Source: Flavivirga algicola
GTDB lineage: Bacteria > Bacteroidota > Bacteroidia > Flavobacteriales > Flavobacteriaceae
Length of the DNA: 64,000 nt
Assembly: GCF_012910715.1 (NCBI RefSeq)
Contig: NZ_JABBHF010000005.1
Span: 186,001 to 250,000 of the forward strand
Direction of reading: 5' to 3'
Shown here one piece after another: positions 7,902-39,680 of the stretch. The stretch's first letter is position 1; each line of letters starts with the position of its first letter. The translations under genes were made by a program, and so were the position numbers. The notes beneath the pieces were generated by a model. It was given only the letters and a program-made list of their open reading frames with translations, ran no database searches and was not told the origin of the DNA.

Positions 7902-7911
7902 ATTAAGAAAA

Positions 7912-18823: not shown

Positions 18824-18837
18824 AAAAGAGAAAATTC

Positions 18838-19638: not shown

Positions 19639-19651
19639 TAAACATAAATAC

Positions 19652-20809: not shown

Positions 20810-20860
20810 TCCGTTTAAAAACCTTATTTTACAAACTCATTTACATTTAAAATTAAAATT

Positions 20861-21175
20861 ATGGCAAAAATAACTTTCATAACAACAGATGATAAAACAA
20901 TAACTTTAGAAGGTACTTCAGGCTCTGTAATGCAATTAGCGGTAGATAATAGTGTGCCAGGAATCGATGGTGATTGCGGCGGCGTTTGTTCCTGTGCTAC
21001 ATGTCACGTGCATGTCGCTCCAGAGCATATCGAAAAAACAGGCGTAGCCAGTGAAATAGAAGAAGATATGTTGGATTTAAACGATTATTCAAATGAACGT
21101 AGTCGCTTGTGCTGTCAACTTGAAATTAGTGAAGCACTTGATGGCTTGGTATTGCAGGTAGCAGAATCGGACTAG
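20861..21175 (+). CDS. [2Fe-2S] ferredoxin (adrenodoxin/putidaredoxin type)
   Basis: The 104-aa protein carries the cluster ligands C39, C45, C48 and C85 in GDCGGVCSCATC and RLCCQL, spaced as in P450-partner ferredoxins. Extra cysteines at 43 and 84 lie inside the motif. It lies between the P450 and the FAD reductase genes, so it should shuttle electrons from the reductase to the P450. Confidence 0.95.
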   Translation: MAKITFITTDDKTITLEGTSGSVMQLAVDNSVPGIDGDCGGVCSCATCHVHVAPEHIEKTGVASEIEEDMLDLNDYSNERSRLCCQLEISEALDGLVLQVAESD

Positions 21176-21193
21176 GTCCTTAAAGTATATTTG

Positions 21194-22450
21194 ATGTCAA
21201 ATAATCAGACTAAAAAACGTGTTTGCGCTGTCATTGGTGCAAGTCACGCAGGGGTAAACTTTGCATTTTCATTACGTAAAGAAGGTTGGGAAGGAGATAT
21301 TGTTCTTTTTGATAAAGATCCTGTGCTTCCTTATCACCGTCCACCACTTTCAAAAGCATATTTAACCAGTGAAGATGGTATTGAAAAAAACTTATTGAAA
21401 TCTGCAGAAAGCTACGAAAAAGAGAACATCCACTTGAATTTAGGAGTTTTGGTTAGTTCGATAAACCGTGAAGATAAAACACTTCGTTTAAGTGATGGTA
21501 GGATTCAGGACTACGATAAGCTCGTCATTGCTACAGGAGCACGGCCTGTTATACCACCAATTCCAGGAATAGATATGGCAACTAATATCTACCCCTTGCG
21601 TACGGCAGAAGATGTTGAGAATATCCGTCATGCATTTAATGCAAGTTCTAATAAGCGTATAATCATTATAGGAGGTGGTTATATTGGTTTAGAAACAGCT
21701 GCTTCTTTGAAAAAACTGGGAGGGGCTGTAACTGTTTTAGAGCGAGAAGAACGTATTTTGGCGCGTGTTACAGCTCCAGAAATGTCAAACTTCTTTATGC
21801 AATTGCATACTCAAAATGGAGTAGATGTATTAACCAATAAAAATGTCGTTTCCATAAAACCTGTTAATGATGTTAATATGGTTGTTTGTGAAGATGGATC
21901 TGAGTTTGAAGCAGATATTATTGTAGTTGGCGTTGGTATTCGAGTTAATTTAGAATTGGCAAAAGATGCAGGTTTGCATATAGAAAATGGTATTGCAGTT
22001 GATGAAACGGCTTGTACAAATGATAAAAATATTTATGCCATAGGCGATTGTACATATCATTATAATCCGCATTACAAACGTCGCGTACGATTAGAATCTG
22101 TTCAAAACGCCGTAGATCAAGCTAAAGTGGCCGCAGCTGCAATTTGCGAAAAGGCTCCAGTTTATGATACGATTCCTTGGTTTTGGTCAGATCAATATGA
22201 TGTTAAACTACAAATGGTTGGATTATCGGAAGGTTATAACAATATCTTAATTAGAAAAGAAGAAAGCGATGGTGTTAAATTTTCTATATGGTATTTTAAA
22301 GATGATACTTTGTTGGCTGTAGATGCTGTAAATAATGCAAAAGCTTATGTTTTGGGAACAAAATTTATAAAAGGCCATAATAAAATAGATCAATCGAAAT
22401 TGGCAGATAATTCTGTGCCTTTTAAACCAGCTAATTTACTGATGCAGTAA
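21194..22450 (+). CDS. FAD-dependent ferredoxin reductase
   Basis: This is 418 aa from ATG 21194. A TTG one codon upstream is unlikely to be the start. Two dinucleotide folds are visible: FAD-binding near the start (VIGASHAGVNFA) and NAD-binding in the middle (IIIGGGYIGLETAASL). The ATGARP motif and the C-terminal FAD motif IYAIGDC are also present. It matches putidaredoxin/rhodocoxin reductases, which pass electrons from NAD(P)H to a [2Fe-2S] ferredoxin. It completes the three-component P450 system. Confidence 0.95.
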   Translation: MSNNQTKKRVCAVIGASHAGVNFAFSLRKEGWEGDIVLFDKDPVLPYHRPPLSKAYLTSEDGIEKNLLKSAESYEKENIHLNLGVLVSSINREDKTLRLSDGRIQDYDKLVIATGARPVIPPIPGIDMATNIYPLRTAEDVENIRHAFNASSNKRIIIIGGGYIGLETAASLKKLGGAVTVLEREERILARVTAPEMSNFFMQLHTQNGVDVLTNKNVVSIKPVNDVNMVVCEDGSEFEADIIVVGVGIRVNLELAKDAGLHIENGIAVDETACTNDKNIYAIGDCTYHYNPHYKRRVRLESVQNAVDQAKVAAAAICEKAPVYDTIPWFWSDQYDVKLQMVGLSEGYNNILIRKEESDGVKFSIWYFKDDTLLAVDAVNNAKAYVLGTKFIKGHNKIDQSKLADNSVPFKPANLLMQ

Positions 22451-26059: not shown

Positions 26060-26830
26060 TTAACTTCCAATTAACTGATTTATATCAAGTTGCGTTTTTT
26101 TAAGCATATTAATTACAGTGTCAATATTTATATCCTCTTCTAAACTGGAAGAAAAAATTGAAATAGCCAAAACGGCATGTATATAAGAATTTTTAGAGCC
26201 TAATGGTACAGCGATATCGGTAACGCCACTGGTGAGTTTGCTTTTAGAGCATCTATAACCATCTTTTTCTATGTCTTCAATAGTAGATAAAAGCTGCTCT
26301 TTTTCTTTTTTGTTCCATGTTTTGAAGTGTTTGTCCCTCGATAAAATTGACAGTCGTTTTTCTTTTGAAAACATAGATAGTAAAGTGCTGCCAGAAGTAG
26401 TCATCGATAAAGGAAAGTGCGTGCCTTCTTCAATGGATAATGATACGGGGCTAGGACTCCTCATCTGATAGATTACTAATAATTGATCATTATTCATGAT
26501 GCTCAAATGGCAGGACTGTCTGGTCGTTTCAGATAAATATTGCATAGGATATCTCGCTACACGTTTTAACTCATCAAAAGGGGTGTGCGTATGCGATAGA
26601 TTATACATTTTCAATGACAGCCTGTATTTACCTGCATTAGTTCCTCTTATTAAATAACCGCGTTCTTCAAGGCATATTAGCATTCTATATATTTCACTAG
26701 GTGTTCTGTCTATACCTTGTGCTATTTCGGCTTGGGTTAAAGGGATGCCTTCTTGAGACAAATACTCTATGATATCAAGGCCTTTGTCCAATGCAGGAGC
26801 GTTGTATTTTGTTGAGGTTGTTTTGGTCAT
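26060..26830 (-). CDS. IclR-family transcriptional regulator
   Basis: The 256-aa protein has an N-terminal winged helix (about 12-75, LTQAEIAQGIDRTPSEIYRML) and a C-terminal IclR effector domain (about 80-250, with SCHLSIMNNDQLLVIYQ and SGVTDIAVPLG). IclR regulators often repress catabolic operons and respond to small acids. KdgR is the example for keto-deoxy sugar acids. It is divergent from the transporter/CoA-transferase operon at 26946, and a palindrome covering that promoter is a likely binding site. Confidence 0.94.
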   Translation of the reverse strand: MTKTTSTKYNAPALDKGLDIIEYLSQEGIPLTQAEIAQGIDRTPSEIYRMLICLEERGYLIRGTNAGKYRLSLKMYNLSHTHTPFDELKRVARYPMQYLSETTRQSCHLSIMNNDQLLVIYQMRSPSPVSLSIEEGTHFPLSMTTSGSTLLSMFSKEKRLSILSRDKHFKTWNKKEKEQLLSTIEDIEKDGYRCSKSKLTSGVTDIAVPLGSKNSYIHAVLAISIFSSSLEEDINIDTVINMLKKTQLDINQLIGS

Positions 26831-26945: not shown

Positions 26946-28013
26946 ATGGCAAACCCTTTAATAGGTACCTTGATTCATGCAGTTGGAGGTGTCGCAGCTT
27001 CTACATGTTATGTGCCTTTTCAAAAAGTTAAAAAATGGTCTTGGGACTCTTATTGGATTGTTCAAGCATCTTTTGCATGGTTTATTTTTCCTTTTTTAAT
27101 TGGGTTTTTAACAGTGCCTAATTTATTAGATGTCTTTAGTGAATCACCAACAGATGTTTTGGTAAATGCCACCTTGCTAGGTGCAATTTATGGTTTTGGA
27201 GGTATGTGTTTTGGTTTTGCCATTAGACATATAGGATATTCACTTACATATACCATATCAATTGGTATTTCTGCAATATTGGGAACTATAGTACCTTTAA
27301 TTCAGGAGGGTACTTTATTTAAAAAATTTAATGAGCCTGGAGGAGGTATTATCTTTTTTGGAATGTTTGTGGCGCTTATCGGAATTGTTTTTTGTGGTTT
27401 AGCGGGGTATAGGAAAGAAAAAGATTTAAAAGCAAATAATACCAATAAAGAGGAAGCTTTAACCTTTAATATGAAAAAAGGGTTGACGCTAACTTTAATT
27501 GCAGGTGTCTTATCGGCAGTTTTTGGTATCTCATTAACAGTGGGGGCACCTGTGGCTGAAATAGCAGGAGAATATGGCGCTGGTAATTTTGAAGGAAATG
27601 CTAATTTAATACTGTCAACAGGTGGTGCGTTTATAACAAACTTCATTTGGTTTACAATAGCTGGTTTAAAAAACGGAACATTAAAAGAAATTATTGATGT
27701 TAAAGGTGTGGGTAAAAAGCATTTTACACTTAATCTAGGAATGTCCATTTTAAGTGGTGCTTTATGGTACGGACAGTTTTTCTTTTATGGAATCGGCCAT
27801 GTTCAAATGGGGGATTATGGCTATGCAAGTTGGGTAATCCATATGTCCATGCTAATTTTCTTTAGCTACATAGTTGGTGTTATAATGAAAGAATGGGTTC
27901 AGGTAACTAAAAAAACAAATATGACATTGTTAATAGCCTTAGCAATACTAATTATATCGTTTATAATAATGGCATATGGAACAGTATTAGGAGAAGAAGT
28001 AGTAGCACATTAA
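26946..28013 (+). CDS. RhaT-like sugar/H+ symporter (DMT-type inner-membrane permease)
   Basis: The 355-aa protein is hydrophobic throughout, with about ten membrane helices, and has the L-rhamnose/proton symporter layout (HAVGGVAASTCYVPFQKVKKWSWDSYW near the N-terminus, SLTVGAPVAEIAGEYGAGNFEGN in the middle, ALWYGQFFFYGIGHVQMGDYG later). It would bring a monosaccharide from periplasm to cytoplasm. It is the first gene of the CoA-transferase operon, 9 bp before the next gene. Rhamnose is the family reference substrate, but no rhamnose isomerase or kinase is nearby, so another sugar or sugar acid is likely. Confidence 0.88.
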   Translation: MANPLIGTLIHAVGGVAASTCYVPFQKVKKWSWDSYWIVQASFAWFIFPFLIGFLTVPNLLDVFSESPTDVLVNATLLGAIYGFGGMCFGFAIRHIGYSLTYTISIGISAILGTIVPLIQEGTLFKKFNEPGGGIIFFGMFVALIGIVFCGLAGYRKEKDLKANNTNKEEALTFNMKKGLTLTLIAGVLSAVFGISLTVGAPVAEIAGEYGAGNFEGNANLILSTGGAFITNFIWFTIAGLKNGTLKEIIDVKGVGKKHFTLNLGMSILSGALWYGQFFFYGIGHVQMGDYGYASWVIHMSMLIFFSYIVGVIMKEWVQVTKKTNMTLLIALAILIISFIIMAYGTVLGEEVVAH

Positions 28014-28022
28014 AATATAAAA

Positions 28023-29174
28023 ATGAGTACAAAAAGAATACAGCTAAAAGGAATAACATGGAACCATAGTAGAGGATTTACATCTATGGTAGCCACGGCA
28101 CAGCGTTTTTCGGAATTAAACCCAAACGTTGACATTACATGGGAAAAAAGATCATTACAAGCTTTTGCAGATGAACCAATAAATGAGTTAGCAAAAAGAT
28201 ACGACTTGCTTATTATTGATCATCCTTGGGCAGGATTTGCAGGTAAGAATAATGTGATTCTGCCTTTAGATAAATATTTACCAAAAGCATACATGGACGA
28301 CCTCGCCGAAAATACTGTAGGGCGTTCCCATGAAAGCTATTCGTCAAACGGTCACCAATGGGCGTTGGCGGTTGATGCTGCAACACCAGTAGCATCAAGC
28401 AGACCAGATATTCTTGCAGAAAAAGGACTTGAACTTCCAAAAACATATGACGATTTATTAGCTTTAGCTAAAGTTAACTTGGTTATTATGCCAGGAATTC
28501 CACAAGACACATTAATGAATTTTTATATGATGTGTTGTAATTTAGGAGAAACTGTTTGTACTTCCAAAGAGCATGTGGTTAGTGAAGACATTGGAATAAA
28601 AGCGTTGCAGTTATTACGTGCGTTGGCAGTAGAAATGGATCCACAAATTTACGATTGGAATCCTATTCAAGTATATGAAGCCATGACGCTAACCGATAAA
28701 TATGCATATTGCCCCTGGGCTTATGGATACACAAACTACAGCAGAAATGGTTATGCCCGAAAACTATTGCATTTTCATGATATGGTGAAAATTAATGGGG
28801 TAGGTGCAATTTCTACGCTTGGGGGAACAGGTTTGGCAGTTTCTGCAGACACAGAAGAGATAGAAACAGCCATGAAATATGTAGAATATGTTGGATCAGA
28901 AGCGTGTCAAAAGACAGTGTTTTTTGACAATGGTGGTCAACCAGGTCATAGAAAGGCATGGACGGACGAACATACAAATAGTTTAACTGCAAATTTCTTT
29001 AAAAATACATTGCCAGGTTTAGACCGTGCTTTTTTACGACCACGTTATAACGGACATATGTATTTTCAAGATAGGGCAGGGGCGCCAATTAGAGATTATT
29101 TAATGCATGGAGGTGATGAAAAAGAATTGCTTTCGCATTTAAATGAATTATATAAAAAATCATTACATAAATAA
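28023..29174 (+). CDS. Solute-binding-protein-like protein without signal peptide
   Basis: The 383-aa protein matches the fold pattern of type I/II sugar-binding proteins of ABC importers ([26 protein letters not shown] at the start, [14 protein letters not shown] and [24 protein letters not shown] later). The N-terminus [10 protein letters not shown] is charged and directly enters strand 1, so there is no signal peptide or lipobox. No ABC permease or ATPase is near. It therefore should sit in the cytoplasm, perhaps as a binding protein or as an enzyme on the same fold. It is one base from the next gene, in a tight operon with CoA-transferases. Function unknown. Confidence 0.75.
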
Positions 29175-29175
29175 T

Positions 29176-30318
29176 ATGAGACCATTAGAGGGTGTTTTAG
29201 TTCTAGAGTTTGCCCAATTCATGGCGGGGCCTTCCGCGGGTTTGAGGTTGGCGGATTTAGGAGCTAGAGTTATAAAAATAGAAAGACCAGACAGAGGAGA
29301 GGCAGGAAGACAAATCGCACTAAAGAATTTGTTTTTAGATGGTAGTAGTTTAGTTTTTCATACTGTCAATAGAAATAAAGATTCTTACGCTGCAAACCTT
29401 AAGGATCCTGAAGATTTAGAACGTATTAAAAAGTTAATTGGCCAAGCAGATGTTATGACACATAATTTCCGGCCAGGGGTCATGGAAAAAATAGGTTTAG
29501 ACTATGAAACGGTAAAAGAGATTAACTCAAAATTAATATATGCTACTGTTACAGGATATGGTACTATAGGTCCCTGGTCCAAAAAACCAGGCCAAGATTT
29601 ATTAATACAATCGATGTCTGGTTTTGCTAATTTGACAGGAAATAAGGAGGATGCCCCTGTGCCTGTTGGAGCAGCAGTTTCAGATATAATTACAGGAACC
29701 CATTTAGCTCATGGAGTGTTAGCCAGCTTGATAAAAAGAGAGAAAACCAATAAGGGTTCATTAGTTGAGGTAAGTTTATTAGAATCTACTTTAGATTTTC
29801 AGTTTGAAGTGATTACAACATATTTAAATGATGGCCACCAACGTCCAGAAAGAGCAAAACAAGGTTCTGCTCATGCTTATTTGGGGGCGCCTTATGGTAT
29901 TTACAAAACAAAGGATGGGTATATATCTATTGCGATGGGCTCTTTGTTAAAATTAGGTGAGGTTCTGGACTGTTCAGAATTAAGCGTGTATACAGATCCA
30001 GATTCTTGGTTTACAAAACGTAACGAAATCATGGACATATTAAGATCTTTTTTAATAAAGGGAAATACATCTCAATGGTTGGATATTTTGGAATCTGAAG
30101 GAATATGGAGTTCAGATGTTTTTGATTATAAAACATTATTGAATCATGAGGCTTACAAAGTACTACAAATGGATCAAAAATTGTCTTTGCTTTCAGGGGA
30201 AGAAGTTCATACTTTAAGATGTCCTATAAGAGTAAATGATCAACGAATATTTTCTAATAAACCTGCCCCACGGGTTGGACAACATACAGAAGACCTTATT
30301 AAAGAATTTAATCTATAA
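29176..30318 (+). CDS. Family III (CaiB/BaiF) CoA-transferase
   Basis: This is 380 aa from ATG 29176. That start matches the paralogue at 30904, whereas an in-frame TTG-type start further upstream would overlap the previous gene. Family motifs are [42 protein letters not shown] and the catalytic Asp170 in AAVSDIITG. The family moves CoA between carboxylic acids, as in carnitine, oxalate, mesaconate or itaconate metabolism. Here it would activate an acid derived from the imported compound. The acceptor is unknown. The gene lies one base after the solute-binding-like gene and 15 bp before the MaoC gene. Confidence 0.92.
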
Positions 30319-30333
30319 AATACAAAGAAAATT

Positions 30334-30837
30334 ATGCCAGAAAACACGCCTTTGGAGCAACACGAAAACATTCCTGTATATAATACGGAAAACTGGATGT
30401 ATGAAGATTTTAAAATTGGACAAAAGGACCGTTCTATTAGAAGAACAATTTCAGAAGGAGAGGCCATGTTGTTCAATGGCTTGGTACTTGATATGCATCC
30501 TTATGTTGGAGATCAGGTTTTTGCTGAAGAAGATGGTCTATTCGGAAAGCGTCTGGTCGCAGGAGCTATGGTCTTTAGTTTGGGACTAGGTCTTATGGCC
30601 AACAATAATGTAAATACTTTCAGTTATGGCTATGATAAGCTTCGGTTTATAAAACCTGTATTTATAGGTGACACAATTTATACAGTACGAACCCATTTAA
30701 ATAAAACTCCAAAATATGATGAAATGGGTTTGATTACCGTTAGTTATGAAGTCTATAAGCATCCTGGGGAATTAGTTTTGTATTGCGAACACTTACAAAC
30801 AGTTAAATATCGAGACCCAAAAAACCATAAAAAATGA
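30334..30837 (+). CDS. MaoC-like hydratase/dehydratase homologue with altered active site
   Basis: The 167-aa hot-dog protein resembles the MaoC protein at 39228, sharing the tail motif [20 protein letters not shown]. In active MaoC/R-hydratases the site reads D-x-N-P-x-H-x-D. Here the matching stretch reads D53-M-H-P-Y-V-G-D60, so the catalytic His position is Val58 and a His sits at the Asn position. It may have shifted chemistry or act as a partner of the intact copy. Mesaconyl- and itaconyl-CoA hydratases are the closest functional analogues by context with CoA-transferases. Confidence 0.85.
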
Positions 30838-30903
30838 GGGGTTTAGATATATTTCATACGTTAAAAATGAGCACAAAAATAATAGTATTCACAATTAGTT
30901 GAG

Positions 30904-32046
30904 ATGAAACCATTAGAAGATATATTAATTATAGATTTAAGTCAGTTTTTATCTGCTCCATCGGCAACATTACGATTAGCAGATTTAGGAGCTCGAGTTA
31001 TAAAAGTTGAAAGACCAGAAATCGGTGACATTTGCAGACAGCTTTATGTTTCAAATGTTCGCTTAAATGGTGAATCAACAATTTTTAGGGCAATTAATAG
31101 AAATAAGGAAAGTTTTCAGGCAGACTTAAAGAATGAAGTTGATAAGCAACGTGTTTTTAAACTTATAGAAAAGGCAGATGTTTTGGTGCATAATTTCAGA
31201 CCAGGTGTCATCGAAAGATTAGGATTAGACTATGAAACTGTCAAAAATATAAATCCAAATATTGTTTATGGAGATATTTCTGGATATGGAACAGAAGGCC
31301 CTTGGAAATCTAAACCTGGACAGGATTTATTACTACAATCCTTGTCTGGCCTAACAGCACTAAACGGAATTGAAGGAAATGGACCTACTCCTGTTGGGTT
31401 AGCAATCGTAGATATATTATCGGGTGCACATTTAGTTCAAGGTATTTTAGCGGCATTGTTAAAACGGGCAAAAACAGGAAAAGGCAGTAAAATATCTGTT
31501 AGCATGTTGGAGTCTATCTTAGATTTTCAATTTGAGTCAATCACAACGTTCTATCACGATGGTGGTCAGCCAACGGTTCGTCCAAAAAGCAACAGTGCTC
31601 ACGCATATTTAGGAGCACCGTATGGTGTATATCAAACAACTAATGGATATATAGCATTAGCAATGGGTTCAATTCCAGTACTTGGTGAACTGTTGGGATG
31701 TAAACCATTAACGCATTATAAAGATGTAGGGTCTTGGTTTACTAAAAGAGATGAGATTAAAAAGATTTTGGCAGATCATTTAAGCACAGATACTACAGAA
31801 AAATGGCTTTCAATTTTAGAGCCGGCTGATATTTGGTGTGCAAGTATTATGGATTGGGATACCTTATTCGCTCAAGATGGTTTTAAAATCTTGGAGATGA
31901 TACAGAACGTGAAAATGGGAGATGGTTTTGAATATAAAACAACGCGCTGTCCTATTAAGATTGATGGAGAATATTTAACATCATCGTTAGGCTCACCCGC
32001 ACTAGGAGAGCACACAAAAGCTATTATAAATGAATTAATTTCATAG
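30904..32046 (+). CDS. Family III (CaiB/BaiF) CoA-transferase, second copy
   Basis: This 380-aa protein has the same length as the protein at 29176 and is clearly related to it (shared [39 protein letters not shown]). The catalytic Asp170 is kept in LAIVDILSG. The N-terminal active-site region differs ([12 protein letters not shown] against [12 protein letters not shown]), so the two may form a heteromer or act on different acids. It lies 66 bp after the MaoC gene and 5 bp before the second solute-binding-like gene. Confidence 0.92.
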
Positions 32047-32051
32047 AAACG

Positions 32052-33281
32052 GTGAACAATAAGTTTAGAATAGCCGTTCGCAAGTTTGATGCCTTTGAAA
32101 CAGGAATTGATAAAATTTGGAAATTATTTTGCAAAAAAACAGGCTGTAAATTAGAATTAGAAGCTGTTCCATTAGACCTACATCCTTTATACGATACCAT
32201 CTTAAAAGACGAGGGGTTAAAACACGGAACTTGGGATGTGTCCTTAATAAATACAGATTGGATTACCGAGGCTTACACAAACAATGCTATCGAAGATTTA
32301 ACACCATATATTGCTAAAAGCCCACCTCATAACTTTCCTGATGGCTGGTCTGGATCTTTATTGTCCAAGCAAGAATTTGATACTAAAACAGTAGGTCTTC
32401 CTTTTCACGATGGACCAGAATGTCTGATCTATAGAAAAGATCTATTCGAATCTGTTGAAGAAAAAACCAATTTCTATAAAGAATATGAAAAACGGTTAGA
32501 GGTTCCAAAAACCTGGGACGATTTAATAGAAGTCGCAGAATTTTTTAACAGACCAAAAGATAATTTATACGGGACTACTTTTGCGGCATATCCAGATGGA
32601 CATAACACGGTGTTTGATTTTTGCCTGCAATTATGGACCCGTGGTGGTGAATTGTTCGATGATGTCAAGAAAATCAAATTAAATTCAGAACAAGCTGTTG
32701 AAGGTATGGCGTTTTACAGAAAGGCACTTAAAAATTTAAAGGCTATTCACCCAGAATCAAGAGATTTCGATTCTGTGAAATCAGGTATGGCTTTTGCCAA
32801 CGGCAATTTAGCAATGATGGTTAACTGGTTTGGATTTGCTTCTATGTGTGAGTTTCTTGAAGGTTCAAAAGTGAAAGGAAAAGTAGATATTGCGAATGTA
32901 CCAGCGGGACCTAATGGAGAAGGTGCCTCTTTAAATGCCTATTGGATGTATGTTATAGGTAGTGGGAGTAAACATAAAGATTTAGCATACGAATTTATTA
33001 AGTTTGCAGTTAACGAAGAGAATGATAAGTTGCTAACATTGGAAGGAGCTATAGGTTGCCGTAAGTCTACATGGCACGATGCAGATGTTAATAAAGAAGT
33101 CCCTTATTATCACAAATTAGAAGAATTACATAAAAATACGCGATCACTTCCCAGAAAGAGTAATTGGTCCAAAATAGCCAATATTATTGATCAGTTGGTG
33201 TTAGAGGTCATCAATACTTCAAAAGACATTACGTTAATTCTGGACAACGCCCAAAAAGAAGTTGATTTTATAGAAAAATAA
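32052..33281 (+). CDS. Second solute-binding-protein-like protein without signal peptide
   Basis: The 409-aa protein starts at GTG 32052, 5 bp after the CoA-transferase stop. It has features of sugar-binding proteins of ABC systems: TWDVSLINTDWITEAYTNNAIEDLTPYI, VPKTWDDLIEVAEFFNRPK, and the C-lobe ASLNAYWMYVIGSGSKHKDLAYEFIKF. As with the protein at 28023, the N-terminus MNNKFRIAVRKFDAF has no signal sequence and no transporter subunits are near. The two are distant from each other, so they may bind or convert two different molecules in the cytoplasm. Confidence 0.75.
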   Translation: MNNKFRIAVRKFDAFETGIDKIWKLFCKKTGCKLELEAVPLDLHPLYDTILKDEGLKHGTWDVSLINTDWITEAYTNNAIEDLTPYIAKSPPHNFPDGWSGSLLSKQEFDTKTVGLPFHDGPECLIYRKDLFESVEEKTNFYKEYEKRLEVPKTWDDLIEVAEFFNRPKDNLYGTTFAAYPDGHNTVFDFCLQLWTRGGELFDDVKKIKLNSEQAVEGMAFYRKALKNLKAIHPESRDFDSVKSGMAFANGNLAMMVNWFGFASMCEFLEGSKVKGKVDIANVPAGPNGEGASLNAYWMYVIGSGSKHKDLAYEFIKFAVNEENDKLLTLEGAIGCRKSTWHDADVNKEVPYYHKLEELHKNTRSLPRKSNWSKIANIIDQLVLEVINTSKDITLILDNAQKEVDFIEK

Positions 33282-33287
33282 TTAATT

Positions 33288-34358
33288 ATGCAATTAGTTT
33301 ACAAACCAGAATTACCAAAAGAAAAACGCCCAATTTATATTATTGGAGCGGGTGGGATTGTTCGTGATGCACATTTACCAGCATATAGAAATGCAGGTTT
33401 TGTGGTAAAAGGCATTACTAACAGAACCAAACAAAGAGCTACAGATTTAGCTAAATCATTTAATATTCCCAATGTTTATGATAATGTAGAGGAGATGGTA
33501 TCTGCGGCATCAACAAATGCCGTTTTTGACCTAACATTGATGCCTAACCAATTTGTAGCTACTTTAGAATTATTACCAGACGAATCGGCAGTATTGATTC
33601 AGAAGCCAATGGGTGATGATTATAAGCAGACTATAGAGATTTTAGAAGTTTGCAGAAGAAAAAAATTAAAAGCAGCTATCAATTGTCAAATGCGTTTTGC
33701 TCCGTATGTTATGGCAGCAAAGTATTTGATTGATCAAGGGTTAATAGGTGAATTATACGATTTTGAAGTTCGACTAACAATTTACACCCCATGGGAGTAT
33801 TTTCCAAATGTAGTGAATCATCCACGTTTAGAAATTCAGCAACACAGCATTCACTATATTGATTTAATCCGTTCGTTTTTAGGAAATCCAAAAAAAGTAT
33901 ATTCAAAAACGTTGCGGAATCCAATAAAACCAATGTCATCAACACGCACTACTACCATTATGGATTATAACGATGCGATGCGTGCCATTATTAATACCAA
34001 TCACGATCATAACTTTGGAGAGAAGAACCAAGAAAGTTTTGTGAAATGGGAGGGAACAAAAGGAGCCATTAAAGCAAGAATAGGGTTGTTGTTGGATTAC
34101 CCTAACGGAAAACCAGATTTATTTCAATATTGTATAGTTAAAGATGGGGAAGAACCAAATTGGGTTGAGGTTGCATTAGAAGGCTCATGGTTTCCTGATG
34201 CTTTTGTAGGAACTATGGCATCTTTAATGCGCTATGTAGAAGGTTCTACGGATGAGCTTCCAACCAGTGTTGAAGATGTTGTGCATTCAATGGCTATAGT
34301 TGAATCTGCTTACCAATCTAATAATGATGGCGGTATTACGCCAAATTACAATGTGTGA
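33288..34358 (+). CDS. Gfo/Idh/MocA-family NAD(P)-dependent oxidoreductase
   Basis: The 356-aa protein has the nucleotide-binding motif IYIIGAGGIVRDAHLPAY near the start and the catalytic Lys in VLIQKPMGDDY, where the usual EKP reads QKP. A His-containing motif HSIHYIDLIRSFLG follows. The family oxidises or reduces hydroxyls of sugars, inositols or sugar acids. It is the last gene of the operon, 6 bp after the solute-binding-like gene. It may carry out the first oxidation of the imported sugar or regenerate a keto group needed before CoA activation. Confidence 0.9.
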   Translation: MQLVYKPELPKEKRPIYIIGAGGIVRDAHLPAYRNAGFVVKGITNRTKQRATDLAKSFNIPNVYDNVEEMVSAASTNAVFDLTLMPNQFVATLELLPDESAVLIQKPMGDDYKQTIEILEVCRRKKLKAAINCQMRFAPYVMAAKYLIDQGLIGELYDFEVRLTIYTPWEYFPNVVNHPRLEIQQHSIHYIDLIRSFLGNPKKVYSKTLRNPIKPMSSTRTTTIMDYNDAMRAIINTNHDHNFGEKNQESFVKWEGTKGAIKARIGLLLDYPNGKPDLFQYCIVKDGEEPNWVEVALEGSWFPDAFVGTMASLMRYVEGSTDELPTSVEDVVHSMAIVESAYQSNNDGGITPNYNV

Positions 34359-34458
34359 GAGGGTTGGCTTTCAATACAATATAAAGCTGGACAGTTAACT
34401 CGGGTCTCACTAAAAGAATGTGTTTGTAATATGTTCAGCATCATCTCAAGTCATAACA

Positions 34459-34477
34459 TTTTCACTGAAAACAGGGT
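34459..34477 (+). repeat. 19-bp dispersed repeat, copy 1
   Basis: The 19-bp segment of form TTTTCACTG-R-AAAC-R-GGGT recurs at 36172-36190 with 17 of 19 bases identical. Both copies lie in non-coding DNA flanking the DUF1963/hypothetical genes. Confidence 0.5.
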
Positions 34478-34534
34478 GTTGTAAGTAATCAATGCAGGGT
34501 ATTTTCGCTTCTATAATAATTAGAAAATATTCCC

Positions 34535-35398
34535 ATGATCGACAAGAAAAAACATTTAAAAATACTTAAGAAGAAATTTGATAAAATTAAATGGGAAAAT
34601 CGAAAAACTTTAGAGAAGTCTTATTTCGATTTTATCGAATCGGAAACTGTTCCAGCTATAAAAATTGAAGAGGAAGTTTCAAAAAAAGTAACCTTAGGAA
34701 TATCAAAAATAGGTGGCACTCCGCATTTGGCACCTCATATGAAATGGCCTGAGTTTGAAAATGCTCCCATGGTGTTTTTTGCACAGCTGAATTTATCGGA
34801 CATAGCATCATATCACATCGAAGATCTCCTGCCCAAAAGAGGAATTTTATATTTCTTTGCACATTATGAAGAACCAGTAAATGAATATGGTGCAGAATTT
34901 GATTTTATACAACCTAAAGAAAAATATCAGGTGCTTTTTTTTGAGGGAGATGATATGGGGCAACTGAAGGATACGTCTTTTCCAGAAACAATGCCTCGTT
35001 GTTACCAATTTAAAGAATCTACCATGCGCTTTGAGCCTTTTTATGAGGTTCCAAACGATATTTATAACTATACAGAATTTGAGGATAATCTTTCTGGCAA
35101 TGATTATAATCGTATTATCGAATTTCACGAAACAATATCAAAAGATTTAGATGTTAGCCAAATATTAGGAGTTCCTGCAGCGGTTCAGGATGATGTAGCT
35201 ATCGATTGGGCATATGCATATATGGAAGAAGAGGAATGTGATGAGGATGAAGATGAATTGGCAGCTGAATTTGTTAACATATTAACCATGCCTATTTTTA
35301 GCAATATTGGTGGTGCACAAGGGTATTTTGGAATTCGAAAGGAAGATTTAGCAGACAAAAACTTTGATGCATGCATTTTTGTTATGCAAGACTCCTAG
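34535..35398 (+). CDS. DUF1963 (YwqG-like) protein
   Basis: The 287-aa cytoplasmic protein has the DUF1963 pattern: SKIGGTPHLAPHMKWPEF, MVFFAQLNLSDI, LLPKRGILYFFAHYEE, and a C-terminal GGAQGYFGIRKEDL. An acidic run (EEEECDEDEDE) precedes the last strand. The family is uncharacterised and often found in toxin/immunity neighbourhoods. It starts a group of genes without link to sugar catabolism that splits the CoA operon from the SDR/MaoC pair. Confidence 0.85.
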   Translation: MIDKKKHLKILKKKFDKIKWENRKTLEKSYFDFIESETVPAIKIEEEVSKKVTLGISKIGGTPHLAPHMKWPEFENAPMVFFAQLNLSDIASYHIEDLLPKRGILYFFAHYEEPVNEYGAEFDFIQPKEKYQVLFFEGDDMGQLKDTSFPETMPRCYQFKESTMRFEPFYEVPNDIYNYTEFEDNLSGNDYNRIIEFHETISKDLDVSQILGVPAAVQDDVAIDWAYAYMEEEECDEDEDELAAEFVNILTMPIFSNIGGAQGYFGIRKEDLADKNFDACIFVMQDS

Positions 35399-35439
35399 TT
35401 TAAGAAGGTTATGCCAATGAGTCAAGTCAATAGAAATAG

Positions 35440-35976
35440 ATGAAAATAATATACTTTTTTTGGATACTTCATGGCTTAATTTACAATGCCCAACAAAAAA
35501 AATATGGCTGTAATGATATCACTTATAAAGGCGGTTATTTCTATGAAATAAAGTCTGGCAATTTAGCAAATGGAGTGCTGGAATGCGTAGAAGCTATTAA
35601 CAATGATGGATATGTCTATAGGGATTTCGCGCATTATAAAAACGGTGTCAAGGTTGGGAAATGGTTGTATACTGAGGGAAATGATACGTTGCAACATGGA
35701 GAAATAATTCTAGATACAAAATTAAGCAGATTACTTTCCCAAAAATTTAGTGCTAAGCACATAGGTCTTGAAATATCTCATGAAAGAGGACTTATTAAAT
35801 TTAATTTAAAGGTTTATGAGCCTAAAAAGGTGCTTGGTTCAATTGAAATTCAAAATATAGTAAATACCGATCTAAGAGGATTTATGATTGTAAACCAGGT
35901 AAATAAGGTTCGTATTTTTATTTTAAATAGTGATGGGTATTGGAGTGACGAAGATTTTTATAAACTAGAAGAATAA
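35440..35976 (+). CDS. Hypothetical exported protein, MORN-like start
   Basis: The 178-aa protein begins with a short hydrophobic segment (IIYFFWILHGLIYNAQ) that may be a signal peptide. DFAHYKNGVKVGKWLYTEGND resembles a MORN/YwqK-type repeat. No family can be named with certainty. It follows the DUF1963 gene by 41 bp and is probably co-transcribed. Confidence 0.6.
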   Translation: MKIIYFFWILHGLIYNAQQKKYGCNDITYKGGYFYEIKSGNLANGVLECVEAINNDGYVYRDFAHYKNGVKVGKWLYTEGNDTLQHGEIILDTKLSRLLSQKFSAKHIGLEISHERGLIKFNLKVYEPKKVLGSIEIQNIVNTDLRGFMIVNQVNKVRIFILNSDGYWSDEDFYKLEE

Positions 35977-35977
35977 A

Positions 35978-36103
35978 ATGTCTACCAAAAGATATAAGGT
36001 TGAAGTTTCAAATCAAATTTTTAAAAACATAGCTAATAAAAAAATTATAAGCCCTATTACAACGGAGGGTGACAAAACAAAATGCTTATCCATCTGTTTG
36101 TAG
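35978..36103 (+). CDS. Short candidate ORF, 41 aa
   Basis: The ATG lies one base after the stop codon of the preceding gene, in a position that allows translational coupling. The peptide (starting MSTKRYKVEVSNQIF) is Lys-rich and has no recognisable family. It may be a real small protein or the remnant of a decayed gene. Confidence 0.3.
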   Translation: MSTKRYKVEVSNQIFKNIANKKIISPITTEGDKTKCLSICL

Positions 36104-36427
36104 TCATTATAAGAGATGTTTAACGGCTATTTTTCTAACTACTAATTATACAATATCATAAAAAATAGGAATTTTCACTGGAAACGGGGTATTTTAATTA
36201 GCTAAAACAAGATATTTTAGTAGTTATTAATATATGTCTTGATCGATAAGGAAGGACTATTTGAACGGCCTTAGGGTGCAATCACGTACATCATTTCAAA
36301 AATAAAAAGATACTACGTCAATAATATTTCAAACAACTAATGTAAAAGGCTTCAAAATAACTTTTTATTTAGACTGTTACGCTTATTTAGAAAATTAAAA
36401 TAGATAAAAACAAATTAATATATAATT
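36104..36427. other. Intergenic region without recognised gene
   Basis: About 320 bp of AT-rich DNA between the short ORF and the lipoprotein gene at 36428. It carries the second 19-bp repeat copy. I see no other conserved element. Confidence 0.4.
36172..36190 (+). repeat. 19-bp dispersed repeat, copy 2
   Basis: This is the second copy of the segment at 34459-34477, differing at two positions (G for A twice). Confidence 0.5.
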
Positions 36428-37141
36428 ATGAAAAAAATATCTTTAGCAAGTCTATTAATCCTAATAGCATTACTTGCTTCCTGTAACAAGAATAAAGAAC
36501 CTAATACCATAAAAGAGGATGTTGGTATGGTTGACAATTCTAAAACTTTAGTAAAAGAAAGCTTAGATTTAAACAAACCAGAGCTTTATTGCGAAATAGA
36601 GCTAGAAAGCACAAAGCAACAAGCTTCGAATTATGAACTTAAAAGTTTTAATGCATTGAAAAAGGGAGCTATCACTACGACATTCAGTATTAGTTTGAAT
36701 GAAGACATGTATAACCGGAATCCTCTGGAAATTGAGCTCATAATGATTCGAGAATCAAATTCACCAAAGTTAATCACAGGAACCTATCCTATAAAATCTT
36801 TGATGGAATCTGAAAAAGGATTAGTGCGTTATTTTGATTTTGTAGGTAATGTTATTAGTATGGAGACATACAAGAATGCCATTGCCGTTGATCTTTTAGA
36901 AGATATAGAAGAGGATTTTGTATTTCTATCTGAGGGAACAAATAAATTAATTATAGAATCGGTAGAGGGAATTAATATTGAGGAAGAAGAGAATGGGGTA
37001 TATGAATCTGGAAAACAGTTATTAACGGGAAGTTTACAGGTTTCCTTGTTAAAAGTATCCAATAAAGAAAAAATTCAGCTGAAAGTTGACTTTAGGGTCA
37101 ACCACGATTGGATATTAGTAAATATGGATAACAAAAAATAA
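36428..37141 (+). CDS. Hypothetical lipoprotein
   Basis: The 237-aa protein has a clear lipobox (LIALLASC, Cys19). The mature part is predicted beta-rich, with many acidic residues and no cysteine motif, transmembrane segment or catalytic signature. I do not recognise the family. It sits in the group of non-catabolic genes between 34.5 and 38.1 kb, 86 bp before the next gene. Confidence 0.7.
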   Translation: MKKISLASLLILIALLASCNKNKEPNTIKEDVGMVDNSKTLVKESLDLNKPELYCEIELESTKQQASNYELKSFNALKKGAITTTFSISLNEDMYNRNPLEIELIMIRESNSPKLITGTYPIKSLMESEKGLVRYFDFVGNVISMETYKNAIAVDLLEDIEEDFVFLSEGTNKLIIESVEGINIEEEENGVYESGKQLLTGSLQVSLLKVSNKEKIQLKVDFRVNHDWILVNMDNKK

Positions 37142-37227
37142 CTGTCCACTAAACAAGGTTTACAAAATGAAGAAAACCTGAATTCCTATATTATTGCTTA
37201 AATCATATAGCTAATTAAAATTAAGAT

Positions 37228-38118
37228 ATGAAAGAAGTAACAGCTAAAAACTTATTTGAGATTTTTTGTGAAAAATTTGCAGAAGTAAATGATGGTACAA
37301 AATCATTTCCAACAACACTAATCATAGAGTTTTTATATGGGACAGAAATTGTATTTTACCCTGAAGAATCAGAATGGTTTAAAATGAGTTTTAGTTCTAT
37401 TGAAGACTACTATTCTGACTATGATATGGGTTCCAATTATGCTTATGAAATAAGTGCTATTATTATAAATTATAAATACAGTGAGAATTCGATTGATTTT
37501 GAGAATTTAAGAAATCAATTTGATCAAATTCAAGATCATACAGGCTTCTCTCATACAAATTCAATAGCTGTCGATGAGGCGGGCATAGATCATGTTATTG
37601 CCCTAACACATTTTGAACACCTTACTTTACAAAGGCCTGAAGATTATGAAAATATGATCTTCAATCACACGCTTAGCACATTATCAAACTCATATAATCA
37701 ATACCAAAAACCAATATTTTCAGAATTTCGTTTAAATAAAAAAATACATACTTTTACCTTGCGTTGGTGGGAATCTAATATTGGTTATAGTTTGCATTTC
37801 GACGATGATACCAAAGTGAACTTTGACCAGGTATTGTATGCCGAAAATGATGTAGAATTAATGTTGGAGCATACTCATGGAGATCAAGAAGCCTTTTTTT
37901 CCATTTGGTTGATTTTGTACAGGATCTGTGTTAAGTTAAAGAGTGCTTTGGCAGACCATCCTATGTTTCTACCAAATTTTGAATGTTATCCTACTTTTTT
38001 CGATCATTTTCAACAAAATGAGGTTTACGGCTTATTTGCTGAAAAACATAAAGATTTAGACATTAACGAATATGTGAATCTCCTTTTGAAAACATTAAAA
38101 AAACCTCAAAATTTCTAA
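37228..38118 (+). CDS. Hypothetical cytoplasmic protein
   Basis: The 296-aa protein has no signal peptide, is acidic and aromatic-rich (EDYYSDYDMGSNYAYE, HTFTLRWWESNIGYSLHFDDD), and has no motif I can name. Its company with DUF1963 suggests an accessory or immunity-type gene group, but this is only a guess from context. Confidence 0.6.
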   Translation: MKEVTAKNLFEIFCEKFAEVNDGTKSFPTTLIIEFLYGTEIVFYPEESEWFKMSFSSIEDYYSDYDMGSNYAYEISAIIINYKYSENSIDFENLRNQFDQIQDHTGFSHTNSIAVDEAGIDHVIALTHFEHLTLQRPEDYENMIFNHTLSTLSNSYNQYQKPIFSEFRLNKKIHTFTLRWWESNIGYSLHFDDDTKVNFDQVLYAENDVELMLEHTHGDQEAFFSIWLILYRICVKLKSALADHPMFLPNFECYPTFFDHFQQNEVYGLFAEKHKDLDINEYVNLLLKTLKKPQNF

Positions 38119-38199
38119 ATTATAGTAATCAAAGAATGACCATAGGGCACTAAACAAAAAGTATCAAAAATTCACATTGTTTATGCTGTTAATGAATAG

Positions 38200-38340
38200 C
38201 TAAAGCAAGTGTTGATATGTTTGTTTTGTTAAGTTGTCAATTTCTTCTTGATTGCCCGCTACTAATGAAGAAAATTCAATAAAATCGTTTGTATTTAAGA
38301 TAGCGTTATTAGCGCTTTCTGTAAGAGAAGAAAGTACCAT
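38200..38340 (-). CDS. Short minus-strand ORF, possible gene remnant
   Basis: The frame of 46 codons starts at ATG 38340, directly after an in-frame TAA, and encodes a plausible helical peptide (FIEFSSLVAGNQEEIDN). It fills part of a 315-bp gap between the hypothetical gene at 37228 and the SDR gene at 38434. No family is recognised. It may be the rest of a decayed gene, and the remaining gap shows nothing else. Confidence 0.25.
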   Translation of the reverse strand: MVLSSLTESANNAILNTNDFIEFSSLVAGNQEEIDNLTKQTYQHLL

Positions 38341-38433
38341 TTAGGGACAAGATTTTAAGGAACTTTATTTAACTTCGCCGCAAGTAAAACTTTAGTCTAA
38401 AAAGCAAAAAAAACAATAAATAAGAATTATATA

Positions 38434-39204
38434 ATGGGTATTTTGAACAAATTTAGTTTAGAAGGCAAAACAGCATTAGTAACAGGATGTAAAAGAGGTA
38501 TTGGAAAGGCTATGGCAGTAGGTTTAGCAGAAGCGGGAGCCAATATTATTGGAGTGTCGGCTTCGTTAGAATTGGAAGGTAGTAATGTTGAAAAAGAAGT
38601 TCAAGCTGTGGGCAAAAGTTTTAAAGCTTATCAATGTGATTTTTCTAATAGAAAAGACTTGTATACTTTTATAGAAGAAGTTAAAAAGGATAATCCGGTT
38701 ATAGATATCTTAGTAAATAATGCAGGAACTATTTTAAGAGCACCAGCTGTGGAGCATTCTGATGATTTGTGGGATAAGGTGATTGAAGTAAATCAAAATG
38801 CTCAGTTTATTTTAACCAGAGAAATTGGTAAAGATATGGTATCTAGAGGTGCTGGAAAAGTAATATTTACCGCATCGTTATTAACATTTCAAGGAGGTAT
38901 AACAGTACCTGGGTATGCAGCAAGTAAAGGTGCTATAGGGCAATTAACGATGGCTTTTTCTAACGAATGGGCGGGTAAAGGAGTTAATGTAAACGCTATT
39001 GCTCCTGGTTATATTTCGACAGATAATACAGAAGCTTTACGAAATGACCAGGCTAGAGCTAATTCTATTTTATCTCGTATTCCAGCTGGAAGATGGGGTA
39101 AAGCTGAAGATTTTGCTGGGCCAACGGTATTTTTAGCTTCTGAAGCAGCTGCTTATATGAATGGAGCCATCGTACTTGTAGATGGTGGATGGATGGGCAG
39201 ATAA
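38434..39204 (+). CDS. kduD: KduD-like SDR dehydrogenase (2-deoxy-D-gluconate 3-dehydrogenase type)
   Basis: The 256-aa classical SDR has the cofactor motif TGCKRGIGKAMA, NNAG, a catalytic Ser in FTASLL, and Tyr/Lys in GYAASKG. The tail RIPAGRWGKAEDFAGPTVFL and the DGGWMGR end are typical of KduD. KduD interconverts 2,5-diketo-3-deoxygluconate and 2-keto-3-deoxygluconate, following KduI. A kduI gene is present at 42872. Here it lies 23 bp before a MaoC gene, so a role on a CoA-linked or other intermediate is also possible. Cytoplasmic. Confidence 0.85.
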   Translation: MGILNKFSLEGKTALVTGCKRGIGKAMAVGLAEAGANIIGVSASLELEGSNVEKEVQAVGKSFKAYQCDFSNRKDLYTFIEEVKKDNPVIDILVNNAGTILRAPAVEHSDDLWDKVIEVNQNAQFILTREIGKDMVSRGAGKVIFTASLLTFQGGITVPGYAASKGAIGQLTMAFSNEWAGKGVNVNAIAPGYISTDNTEALRNDQARANSILSRIPAGRWGKAEDFAGPTVFLASEAAAYMNGAIVLVDGGWMGR

Positions 39205-39227
39205 TTTAATCATAAAAATATCAAGAT

Positions 39228-39680
39228 ATGCATATTGTATCAAGGTTTTACGAGGATTACGAATTAGGTAGTAAAAGAGAGACTTTAGGAAGAACAATTA
39301 CAGAAACAGATTTTGTTGTTCATGCTGGACATACAGGCGACTATTTTCCACATCATATGGACGCCGAATGGTGCAAAACACAACCTTTTAAGCAACGAAT
39401 TGCTCATGGTACACTTACGTTTAGTGTAGGTATTGGTATGACGGCTACAGAAATAAACCCTGAGGCTTTTTCTAAAGGATATGACCGATTGCGTTTTATA
39501 AAACCCGTATATATAGGTGATACCATTAGGGTTGTAGTCACAGTTAGCGAAAAGAAAGCATCTAAACGTCCTGAATTAGGCCATGTTAATGAGCATGTTG
39601 AAATATTTAATCAGCGAGATGAATTGGTTTTGGTTTGTGATCATATTTTACTCGCTAAGAAAAAGGAATTCGAGACCTAA
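39228..39680 (+). CDS. MaoC-like acyl-CoA hydratase/dehydratase
   Basis: The 150-aa hot-dog protein has the catalytic dyad intact: D38 and H43 in GDYFPHHMD, followed by [14 protein letters not shown]. The tail [20 protein letters not shown] mirrors the protein at 30334, which lacks the His. The family hydrates or dehydrates enoyl-CoA, as with mesaconyl- and itaconyl-CoA. Lying 23 bp after the KduD-like gene, it probably belongs to the same route as the CoA-transferases 5 kb upstream. Confidence 0.88.

Follow-up and report, generated by a model that had tools for sequence, protein, structure and literature searches.

The locus analysed here raises the question of why genes for two family III coenzyme A (CoA) transferases and two MaoC-like proteins should stand beside a sugar symporter among glycan-degradation genes, when the dehydratases known for sugar acids depend on metals or iron-sulfur clusters and act on the free acid. 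It lies on contig NZ_JABBHF010000005.1 of Flavivirga algicola (assembly GCF_012910715.1), in a stretch of 64,000 nucleotides (positions 186,001 to 250,000, called the window; coordinates below are positions within it), for which an earlier note had proposed import of a sugar, oxidation to an acid, CoA transfer and dehydration. The genes lie where that note had placed them and belong to the families it had named, as judged by the positions of open reading frames (ORFs) and by Pfam scores above the curated cut-offs; the order of steps is likewise supported, by enzymes that keep their catalytic residues. We estimate a probability of roughly 55% that the locus is a catabolic cassette turning an L-galactose-like sugar into 2-keto-3-deoxy-L-galactonate (L-KDGal) by way of CoA esters. 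L-galactose freed from porphyran is the likeliest sugar, with L-fucose or a methylated relative as possible alternatives.

Seven genes on the forward strand, separated by 9, about 1, 15, 66, 5 and 6 bases, run from a RhaT-family sugar/proton symporter (26946..28013; 187 bits by Pfam) to a Gfo/Idh/MocA oxidoreductase (Gfo; 33288..34358), a candidate sugar dehydrogenase with K106, H189 and D192 in 63/63 aligned rows. Between them lie genes for SBP1 (28023..29174), which has the fold of a solute-binding protein (SBP); CaiB1 (29143..30318), a family III CoA-transferase; MaoC1 (30334..30837); CaiB2 (30904..32046), a second family III CoA-transferase; and SBP2 (32052..33281, with a GTG start), a second SBP-fold protein. 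The CaiB1 ORF as listed overlaps SBP1; an in-frame ATG at 29176 is available and is the likelier start, giving MRPLEG..., which resembles the MKPLED... of CaiB2. Beyond an insert (34535..38118) follow, on the same strand and as the earlier note had it, a KduD-like short-chain dehydrogenase/reductase (SDR; 38434..39204) and MaoC2 (39228..39680). RhaT, SBP_bac_1/8 (twice), CoA_transf_3 (twice; 316.5 and 316.7 bits), MaoC_dehydratas (twice; 48 and 82 bits), Gfo/Idh/MocA and SDR all exceed their Pfam curated cut-offs. With CaiB1 as query, the whole 5.02 Mb genome gave matches (E up to 0.001) in two places only, both in the cassette. Families were assigned to the window ORFs with Pfam, and to ORF 55512-56579 with NCBIfam; the scan left out the ORFs at 945-1862, 35440-35976, 36428-37141 and 37228-38118 and small nested ones.

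The enzymes that would act on CoA esters appear intact. Family III transferases bear CoA on an aspartate, and CaiB2 matches PF02515 over its whole length (about 316 bits), with Asp170 aligned to the Asp of solved transferases that we take to be the catalytic Asp of formyl-CoA transferase; an Asp stands at this position in 127/127 rows of the pooled CaiB alignment, CaiB1 included. For neither CaiB1 nor CaiB2 did any NCBIfam CoA-transferase model (glutarate, mesaconate, oxalate and carnitine were checked) reach its cut-off, the best being 226.9 bits against 750 for the succinate-glutarate model, and the sub-family is therefore unnamed. A CaiB tree was flagged for long branches and was not used. 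The catalytic pair of MaoC hydratases is an Asp/His dyad, and MaoC2 (PF01575) is assigned to the MaoC (R)-hydratases by its dyad, with D38 in 52/52 rows and H43 in 44/44 rows after removal of eight MaoC1-type rows. MaoC1 has the domain but carries Val at the His position, as do all of the MaoC1-type rows (8/8, the window copy included), which rules it out as a normal hydratase. It is an optional member of the cassette, with a true copy in 4 of the 30 related loci described below; its 65-71% identity to copies in Roseibium (71%), Pararhizobium and Sinorhizobium implies that it has been retained for some different role. In sister cassettes a crotonase is found that keeps both of its glutamates in 27/27 rows.

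Where the earlier note had grouped a CoA-transferase/MaoC set with sugar genes, the association stands and proves wider than proposed, but its two solute-binding-like proteins do not resemble transport components. Both have the SBP fold by Pfam (PF01547/PF13416), and Foldseek searches with a predicted model of SBP1 (mean predicted local distance difference test, pLDDT, 68.8) matched sugar SBPs, with a best E of 3.7e-15 and template modelling scores of about 0.4-0.5. A hydrophobic N-terminus is absent from SBP1, SBP2 and the SBP1-family rows as measured by hydropathy, no dedicated signal-peptide program having been run: the best N-terminal values are 0.39 for SBP1 and 0.24 for SBP2, against 1.84-2.44 in six exported control proteins, and rows of the SBP1 family from three phyla do not exceed 1.36, the top value belonging to a cut-off fragment. 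Instead of an export signal, the family begins straight at a motif W-[NDS]-H-x-R-G, in which W13, R17 and G18 are present in 87/87 rows and H15 in 85/87; D61, D66, Y106, D118, Y236, Y239, Q296, Q306 and R339 are invariant in the same 87 rows. Mapping of these residues onto the cleft was dropped, as the conserved loops are poorly predicted in the SBP1 model (pLDDT below 50 in most of 98-121, plus 236-246, 260-268 and 301-345). No ABC permease was found among the window genes scanned with Pfam, so that SBP1 and SBP2 show neither the export signal nor the linked ABC transporter that characterize the solute-binding proteins of such transporters. On these sequence features they look like partners of the CoA-transferases, presumably as helpers of CoA transfer, and the two CaiB and two SBP proteins might form a hetero-complex.

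The earlier note had named a lack of joint conservation in other genomes as a refutation of its proposal, and this refutation failed. A pattern scan with SBP1 over the genomes of 84,980 species yielded 30 Bacteroidota loci, all close relatives (30 of 225 pattern places), several of which end at contig ends; absences were counted by tblastn, since the ORF caller discards overlapping ORFs. SBP1, CaiB1 and CaiB2 are each present in all 30 (the figure for SBP1 is not informative, as the loci were chosen by similarity to it), Gfo and RhaT in 29 (RhaT on the cassette strand in 27), SBP2 in 28, MaoC2 in 19, and the zinc dehydrogenase ADH338 and the SDR in 14 each (13 with both), whereas GH29 glycoside hydrolases and crotonase (7 each), aldehyde dehydrogenase (6) and an RraA-like aldolase (3) are rarer. 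A structure alignment covered 26 of these loci. The ordered set is kept in Flavobacteriaceae, Flammeovirga, Fulvivirga, Saccharicrinis and Persicobacter; carriers include Lutibacter agarilyticus and Tamlana fucoidanivorans, and Flavobacterium saccharophilum has a reduced set. A profile of 299 family genomes drawn from a larger group, less biased than the loci fetched with SBP1 although its E-value limits differ per gene, found SBP1 in 23 (E up to 1e-10) and CaiB2 in 21 (E up to 1e-70), all 21 among the 23 (hypergeometric 2.7e-30), and crotonase in seven, all of them SBP1 carriers (6.2e-9); these values overstate the linkage because the genomes share kinship, and are not true probabilities. Among 70 loci with an SBP1-family gene, nearly all obtained via SBP1 similarity and some sharing a genome or coming from closely related ones, 58 have CaiB at most 300 bases away and seven have it farther off, while none was found in five; MaoC or crotonase lies within 12 kb in 57. 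That SBP1 and CaiB invariably occur together had to be rejected, as distant loci break the pairing.

Sister arrangements show which parts of the cassette vary. Type B cassettes (L065-L067, L129-L131) contain SBP1, CaiB1, CaiB2, crotonase and aldehyde dehydrogenase, and Gfo, SBP2 and MaoC2 were not seen in the stretches examined. Type C loci (L075, L077-L081) contain a distant SBP1 (35-38% identical), an SDR, a beta-propeller lactonase and a UxuA-like dehydratase, with crotonase in 5/6 and a CaiB relative in 3/6. From these differences it follows that the oxidation enzyme and the hydratase vary and that SBP1 with CaiB is the usual core, to which the distant SBP1 members are an exception. A 6-phosphogluconolactonase-like lactonase encoded in the window (55512-56579) has relatives beside, or one to two genes from, the distant SBP1 genes (L075-L081), and four Flammeovirga loci and Persicobacter encode a further such lactonase beyond the cassette.

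The module also extends beyond the close Bacteroidota set, its carriers comprising seaweed-eating and soil bacteria. In searches of plasmids an SBP1-family gene turned up in 145-153 records, of which 90 belong to Sinorhizobium; of 19 SBP1 places taken, 17 had a gene table (those of L168 and L174 were empty), and three stretches were extended. In 15 of the 17, CaiB directly adjoins SBP1; in Jannaschia and Streptomyces, the remaining pair, the distance is at most 5 kb. All 17 have an annotated MaoC or crotonase if the extensions of two Sinorhizobium loci are included, in which the CaiB-SBP pair is about 10 kb from the fucose genes. Persicobacter and Rufibacter have cassettes of the Bacteroidota type. 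L-fucose-type loci with mutarotase and relatives of Gfo and MaoC2 occur in Sinorhizobium, Nitratireductor, Roseibium, Pararhizobium, Shinella, Thalassospira and Qingshengfaniella; the first four add lactonase, SDR, a fumarylacetoacetate hydrolase (FAH) family enzyme and L-fuconate dehydratase, the Shinella locus lacks the adjoining amidohydrolase and FAH, FAH and L-fuconate dehydratase were not seen in the Thalassospira stretches, and the Qingshengfaniella stretch stops at MaoC. Window proteins and their fucose-locus counterparts are 64-65% identical for MaoC2 (the copies of Sinorhizobium, Thalassospira and Roseibium), 44-46% for Gfo, 53% for CaiB2 and 36-39% for SBP1. Pseudosulfitobacter, a second Pararhizobium locus and Rhizobium Q54 combine CaiB, SBP and crotonase with an SDR and/or an FAH enzyme, and their tables list no classical dehydratase; Methylobacterium nodulans has MaoC-CaiB-SBP with PdxA and a four-carbon acid kinase; a Streptomyces locus encodes SBP, FAH, CaiB, MaoC and an NADP aldehyde dehydrogenase; Croceibacterium has two CaiB, SBP, MaoC, Gfo and a beta-galactosidase; and Jannaschia has an aldehyde dehydrogenase (60% identical to that of sister cassettes), CaiB, crotonase, SBP, an SDR (34% identical to that of the cassette) and a zinc dehydrogenase (25%). 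No classical sugar-acid dehydratase appears in the incomplete gene tables of L165, L169 and L173 (CaiB-SBP-crotonase) and L166 (SBP, CaiB, MaoC), and L165, L166 and L169 carry an FAH-family enzyme. The core of family III CoA-transferase, non-exported SBP-fold protein and MaoC or crotonase is thus found in Alphaproteobacteria and one Streptomyces locus as well, mostly amid sugar-oxidation genes.

From the chemistry of the enzyme families we infer the sugar, every reaction and its direction, and the recycling of CoA. The sugar would enter through RhaT and be oxidized to an aldonic acid by Gfo, together with lactonases that some genomes encode nearby; CaiB1 and CaiB2, aided by the non-exported SBP1 and SBP2, would place CoA on the acid; the thioester would render the C2 proton acidic, and MaoC2 (crotonase in sister cassettes) would take off the C3 hydroxyl; and the resulting enol would become a 2-keto-3-deoxy acyl-CoA, whose CoA would be handed to the next acid, much as in the carnitine cycle of CaiB and CaiD. 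As the C3 oxygen of an aldonic acid is beta to the carboxyl group, its CoA ester could lose water by the usual hydratase chemistry, and, with CoA handed on, the dehydration would be catalytic in CoA. ADH338 and the KduD-like SDR would then convert L-KDGal to 2-keto-3-deoxygluconate (KDG). For a 3,6-anhydro substrate, the hydratase step might instead open the ring of the CoA ester.

The case for L-KDGal as the product comes from the two oxidoreductases at the end of the cassette. The SDR scores 318.5 bits against the NCBIfam KduD model (TIGR01832), below the cut-off of 338.85, and is not assigned to KduD on that basis; it may still function like KduD, judging by its 81-88% identity to the SDRs of four classical 3,6-anhydro-L-galactose loci, and is probably a 2,5-diketo-3-deoxy-L-galactonate 5-reductase. 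Nine such loci were compared (L125, L127, L128 and L137-L142, of which L128 stops before the cycloisomerase): a dehydrogenase 77-90% identical to ADH338 of the cassette locus L030 is present in 9/9, and the SDR is of the window kind in 4/9 (L138-L141), only 35-37% identical in four and absent in one. In the classical loci this pair neighbours an aldehyde dehydrogenase and a cycloisomerase. The Aquimarina gene order in an excerpt of PMC10163077 is annotated KDGal 5-dehydrogenase, 2,5-diketo-3-deoxy-L-galactonate (DDGal) 5-dehydrogenase, 3,6-anhydro-L-galactose (AHG) dehydrogenase and AHG cycloisomerase, and the same pathway is given in PMC5943477. From the likeness of the two pairs, the cassette probably delivers L-KDGal. 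The SDR, which the earlier note had linked to the cassette, is retained in the route; its action is best placed after the CoA steps, which corrects the earlier reading. The aldehyde dehydrogenase and the cycloisomerase were not found among the window genes scanned, and this genome encodes them on a different contig, the cycloisomerase scoring 637 bits to the solved 5xd7. In this genome the close relative of ADH338 stands in the anhydrogalactose locus and the closer kind of SDR in the window, which suggests sharing between the two. The cycloisomerase occurs in 24 of the 299 family genomes, ten of which also have SBP1 (odds ratio 14, p 9e-7). On contig G000:C1 of this genome (about 160-171 kb; L125 and L126), the classical anhydrogalactose genes face, in divergent orientation, a crotonase and a second aldehyde dehydrogenase.

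The earlier note had pointed to the lack of a lyase or thiolase to finish the route, and neither a thiolase nor an HpcH/HpaI-type lyase was found among the window ORFs scanned. Relatives of the cassette do encode aldolases: an RraA-like one follows MaoC2 in L049, where it was assigned by a family scan, and in L040 and L041, where it was assigned by 87% identity, and L070 and L073 open with an aldolase of the dihydrodipicolinate synthase family, an iron alcohol dehydrogenase, PdxA and a DUF1537-type kinase domain (by similarity in L073). Such genes are expected to act downstream of keto-deoxy or hydroxy acids, and they answer the point for these relatives, not for the window.

A substrate of L-galactose or a close relative is favoured because of GH29 linkage, the L-galacto-type lower pathway and the alphaproteobacterial relatives among L-fucose genes, L-fucose having the same configuration as L-galactose. 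A GH29 gene lies 3' of MaoC2 on the same strand in six of the 30 loci, the matches being 33-126 bases apart in five of them and about 1.7 kb apart in the other; PMC12316285 places the alpha-L-galactosidase that serves porphyran use in this family. The glycan genes of the window comprise two GH29, seven sulfatases, three GH2, two GH28, one GH16 and a cytochrome P450 set. This set (17705-22450) encodes a zinc alcohol dehydrogenase, an esterase, the P450 and a ferredoxin reductase consecutively, stands upstream of the cassette in L034, L038 and L039 too, and presumably resembles the 6-O-methyl-D-galactose demethylation set of porphyran users. An alpha-acetolactate decarboxylase-like protein (7879-8733) is encoded within the glycan locus, its gene overlapping the end of a sulfatase gene, and two large ORFs, 8881-11082 (733 aa) and 62052-63836 (594 aa), match no Pfam family at E 0.001.

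Of the remaining features, an IclR-family regulator (26060..26830, reverse strand; assigned by Pfam) is divergent from the operon and has a relative of at least 40% identity in 25 of the 30 loci. The insert between Gfo and the SDR, on the forward strand, holds a DUF1963 protein and short ORFs of no assigned family, in the slot that the ADH338 region fills in 14 of the 30 relatives; in L038 and L039 this slot contains a 739-aa ORF followed by a DUF1963 gene.

Several observations weigh against the proposed route. The functional evidence is wholly by association, and the predicted SBP1 model is of only middling confidence. GH29 is near the cassette in just 7 of the 30 loci and absent from 23, and MaoC2 is uncounted in 11, some of them cut by contig ends and one (L044) with a partial match at its end. 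Among loci with a distant SBP1 (35-38% identical), no CaiB was found at L082 or in the stretches of L076, L077, L078 and L080, most of which encode a UxuA-like dehydratase. In L133, crotonase and aldehyde dehydrogenase accompany two CaiB genes with no SBP1 beside them, in a genome that carries a cassette of the window type (cassette A). Classical enzymes for the same sugars also persist. The F. algicola genome has a classical oxidative L-fucose/L-galactose set (L083) 20 kb upstream of the window, with FucP and L-fucose dehydrogenase (above NCBIfam cut-offs), a fuconolactonase-like amidohydrolase, GH29, a tagaturonate reductase, a member of the altronate/galactarate dehydratase family and an L-rhamnose mutarotase; it has a classical anhydrogalactose locus as well, with an SDR that shares just 37% identity with that of the window; the alphaproteobacterial L-fucose loci mostly retain an annotated L-fuconate dehydratase; and all seven of the crotonase genomes among the 299 also carry the classical cycloisomerase. 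With the classical dehydratase or cycloisomerase kept alongside, the CoA route is no simple replacement and may serve another substrate. Indeed, cassette A as a CoA-dependent replacement of the anhydrogalactose cycloisomerase was rejected, since those seven genomes have the cycloisomerase and Flammeovirga pacifica WPAGA1 has both it and cassette A (L058; PMC6581685 and PMC5385347). Genome G127 has a fucose-type oxidative set with no adjoining dehydratase (L068), and no L-fuconate dehydratase match was obtained at the two of its four enolase-superfamily places that were compared; a third was left uncompared, the fourth (434 aa) was taken as enolase by size, other dehydratase families lay outside the search, and no claim is made from this genome.

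This persistence speaks for the alternative that the CoA branch handles, in parallel to the classical route, a modified sugar, such as O-methylated L-fucose, L-galactose or 3,6-anhydro-L-galactose, which the classical dehydratase or cycloisomerase refuses. Repeatedly, the module coexists with a classical enzyme directed at sugars of the same kind, as in the crotonase genomes and in Nitratireductor, Roseibium, Pararhizobium, Shinella and Sinorhizobium, whose CaiB and MaoC genes lie near an annotated L-fuconate dehydratase, and the second aldehyde dehydrogenase, about 50% identical to the one adjacent to the cycloisomerase, makes a related aldehyde a likely substrate. We nevertheless consider this explanation unlikely, if worth keeping in view: the gene tables of L165, L166, L169 and L173 show no classical dehydratase, a 2-O-methyl group lends a CoA route no obvious chemical advantage, and the core genes counted over the 30 loci include none for demethylation.

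A route resembling beta-oxidation, in which the SDR would serve as a 3-hydroxyacyl-CoA dehydrogenase on the CoA-activated sugar acid and a thiolase encoded elsewhere would remove a two-carbon unit, seems improbable. SDR and MaoC enzymes are both able to handle 3-hydroxyacyl-CoA, and some loci encode PdxA together with a kinase for C4 acids or a relative of it, as though C4 acids were processed; yet the closeness of the SDR to the KduD-like enzymes of four anhydrogalactose loci and its score against KduD point elsewhere, and the sole thiolase in the annotated loci (Roseibium) belongs to a seemingly separate aromatic cluster. Equally doubtful is that the CoA genes act on an ordinary carboxylic acid (glutarate, itaconate, mesaconate, or a pyruvate or acetyl substituent of a glycan) and have sugar genes as neighbours by coincidence, for although the nearest named or solved families are dicarboxylate and oxalate/formate transferases and no NCBIfam transferase model is reached at its cut-off, the module occurs mostly with sugar-oxidation genes across three phyla and with differing sugars, and the SBP fold is nearest to sugar-binding proteins. 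That some other export route takes SBP1 and SBP2 out of the cell to feed a transporter, the CoA genes having a separate function, is very improbable, for although they have the SBP fold and an exported SBP with an ABC transporter is encoded nearby in Alphaproteobacteria, the SBP1 family lacks a hydrophobic N-terminus in three phyla and opens on a near-invariant W-x-H-x-R-G, the scanned window genes include no ABC permease, and in Roseibium and Sinorhizobium the CaiB gene shares 4 bases with the SBP gene.

The CoA-ester route to L-KDGal, which we thus prefer for the cassette, may exemplify a wider, unreported form of sugar catabolism. Tentatively, we propose that Bacteroidota, Alphaproteobacteria and at least one actinomycete process aldonic acids (hexonates, 6-deoxyhexonates, pentonates and anhydro-hexonates) as CoA thioesters, which are dehydrated or ring-opened by CaiB acting with a cytoplasmic SBP-fold subunit of the W-x-H-x-R-G type, either catalytic or presenting the substrate, and with MaoC and crotonase as interchangeable hydratases. 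The earlier note had not recognized a familiar pathway in the gene combination, and neither the gene set nor CoA esters of sugar acids in catabolism were described in the open-licence literature searched, as judged by titles and the starts of abstracts and, where matches were many, by the first 20 of 117 and of 70. If correct, the proposal would establish CoA esters as a new entry into sugar catabolism, account for non-exported sugar-binding proteins now annotated as transport parts, fill a gap in the bacterial use of red-algal galactans and plant L-sugars, and provide directly testable functions for genes in Sinorhizobium, Roseibium, Streptomyces and marine Bacteroidota.

Comparison with known systems indicates which elements are new. 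In the carnitine cycle, the family III CoA-transferase CaiB activates a hydroxy acid, the hydratase CaiD dehydrates the CoA ester, and the CoA moves to the next acid. The proposed route is similar in CoA activation, dehydration and the handing on of CoA (of these, the CaiB family match was tested here), but differs in its sugar-acid substrate, in the use of MaoC2 or another crotonase as dehydratase, in the non-exported SBP-fold partner and in the accompanying sugar-oxidation genes. Its logic is that of CaiB and CaiD; new to us are the kind of substrate, the SBP partner that is not exported and how widely the module occurs, and there is a real chance that they define a new class of sugar catabolism. 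With the non-phosphorylative oxidative pathways of L-fucose and L-rhamnose it shares a sugar dehydrogenase, lactonase, mutarotase and a 2-keto-3-deoxy acid, and relatives of CaiB, SBP, Gfo and MaoC2 occur in such loci of Alphaproteobacteria; in those pathways, the free acid is dehydrated by an enolase-superfamily or other dehydratase without CoA. With 3,6-anhydro-L-galactose catabolism it shares close relatives of its last two oxidoreductases, hence probably L-KDGal, and a related aldehyde dehydrogenase in sister cassettes, but CoA-transferases and a hydratase stand beside or in place of the cycloisomerase. Succinyl-CoA:mesaconate CoA-transferase with mesaconyl-CoA hydratase, and itaconate degradation, likewise employ a CaiB-type transferase followed by a MaoC-type enzyme, in contrast to which the present transferases score far below the NCBIfam mesaconate cut-off (171 and 191 bits against 700), the HpcH/HpaI-type lyase is not among the scanned window ORFs, and the context is one of sugars. 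Finally, MaoC2 is related to the C-terminal hydratase domain of PaaZ and to the solved chain 4ffu, which is listed as an 'oxidase' and differs by one letter from an S. meliloti relative of MaoC2; unlike the PaaZ domain, MaoC2 is a stand-alone protein encoded in a sugar locus.

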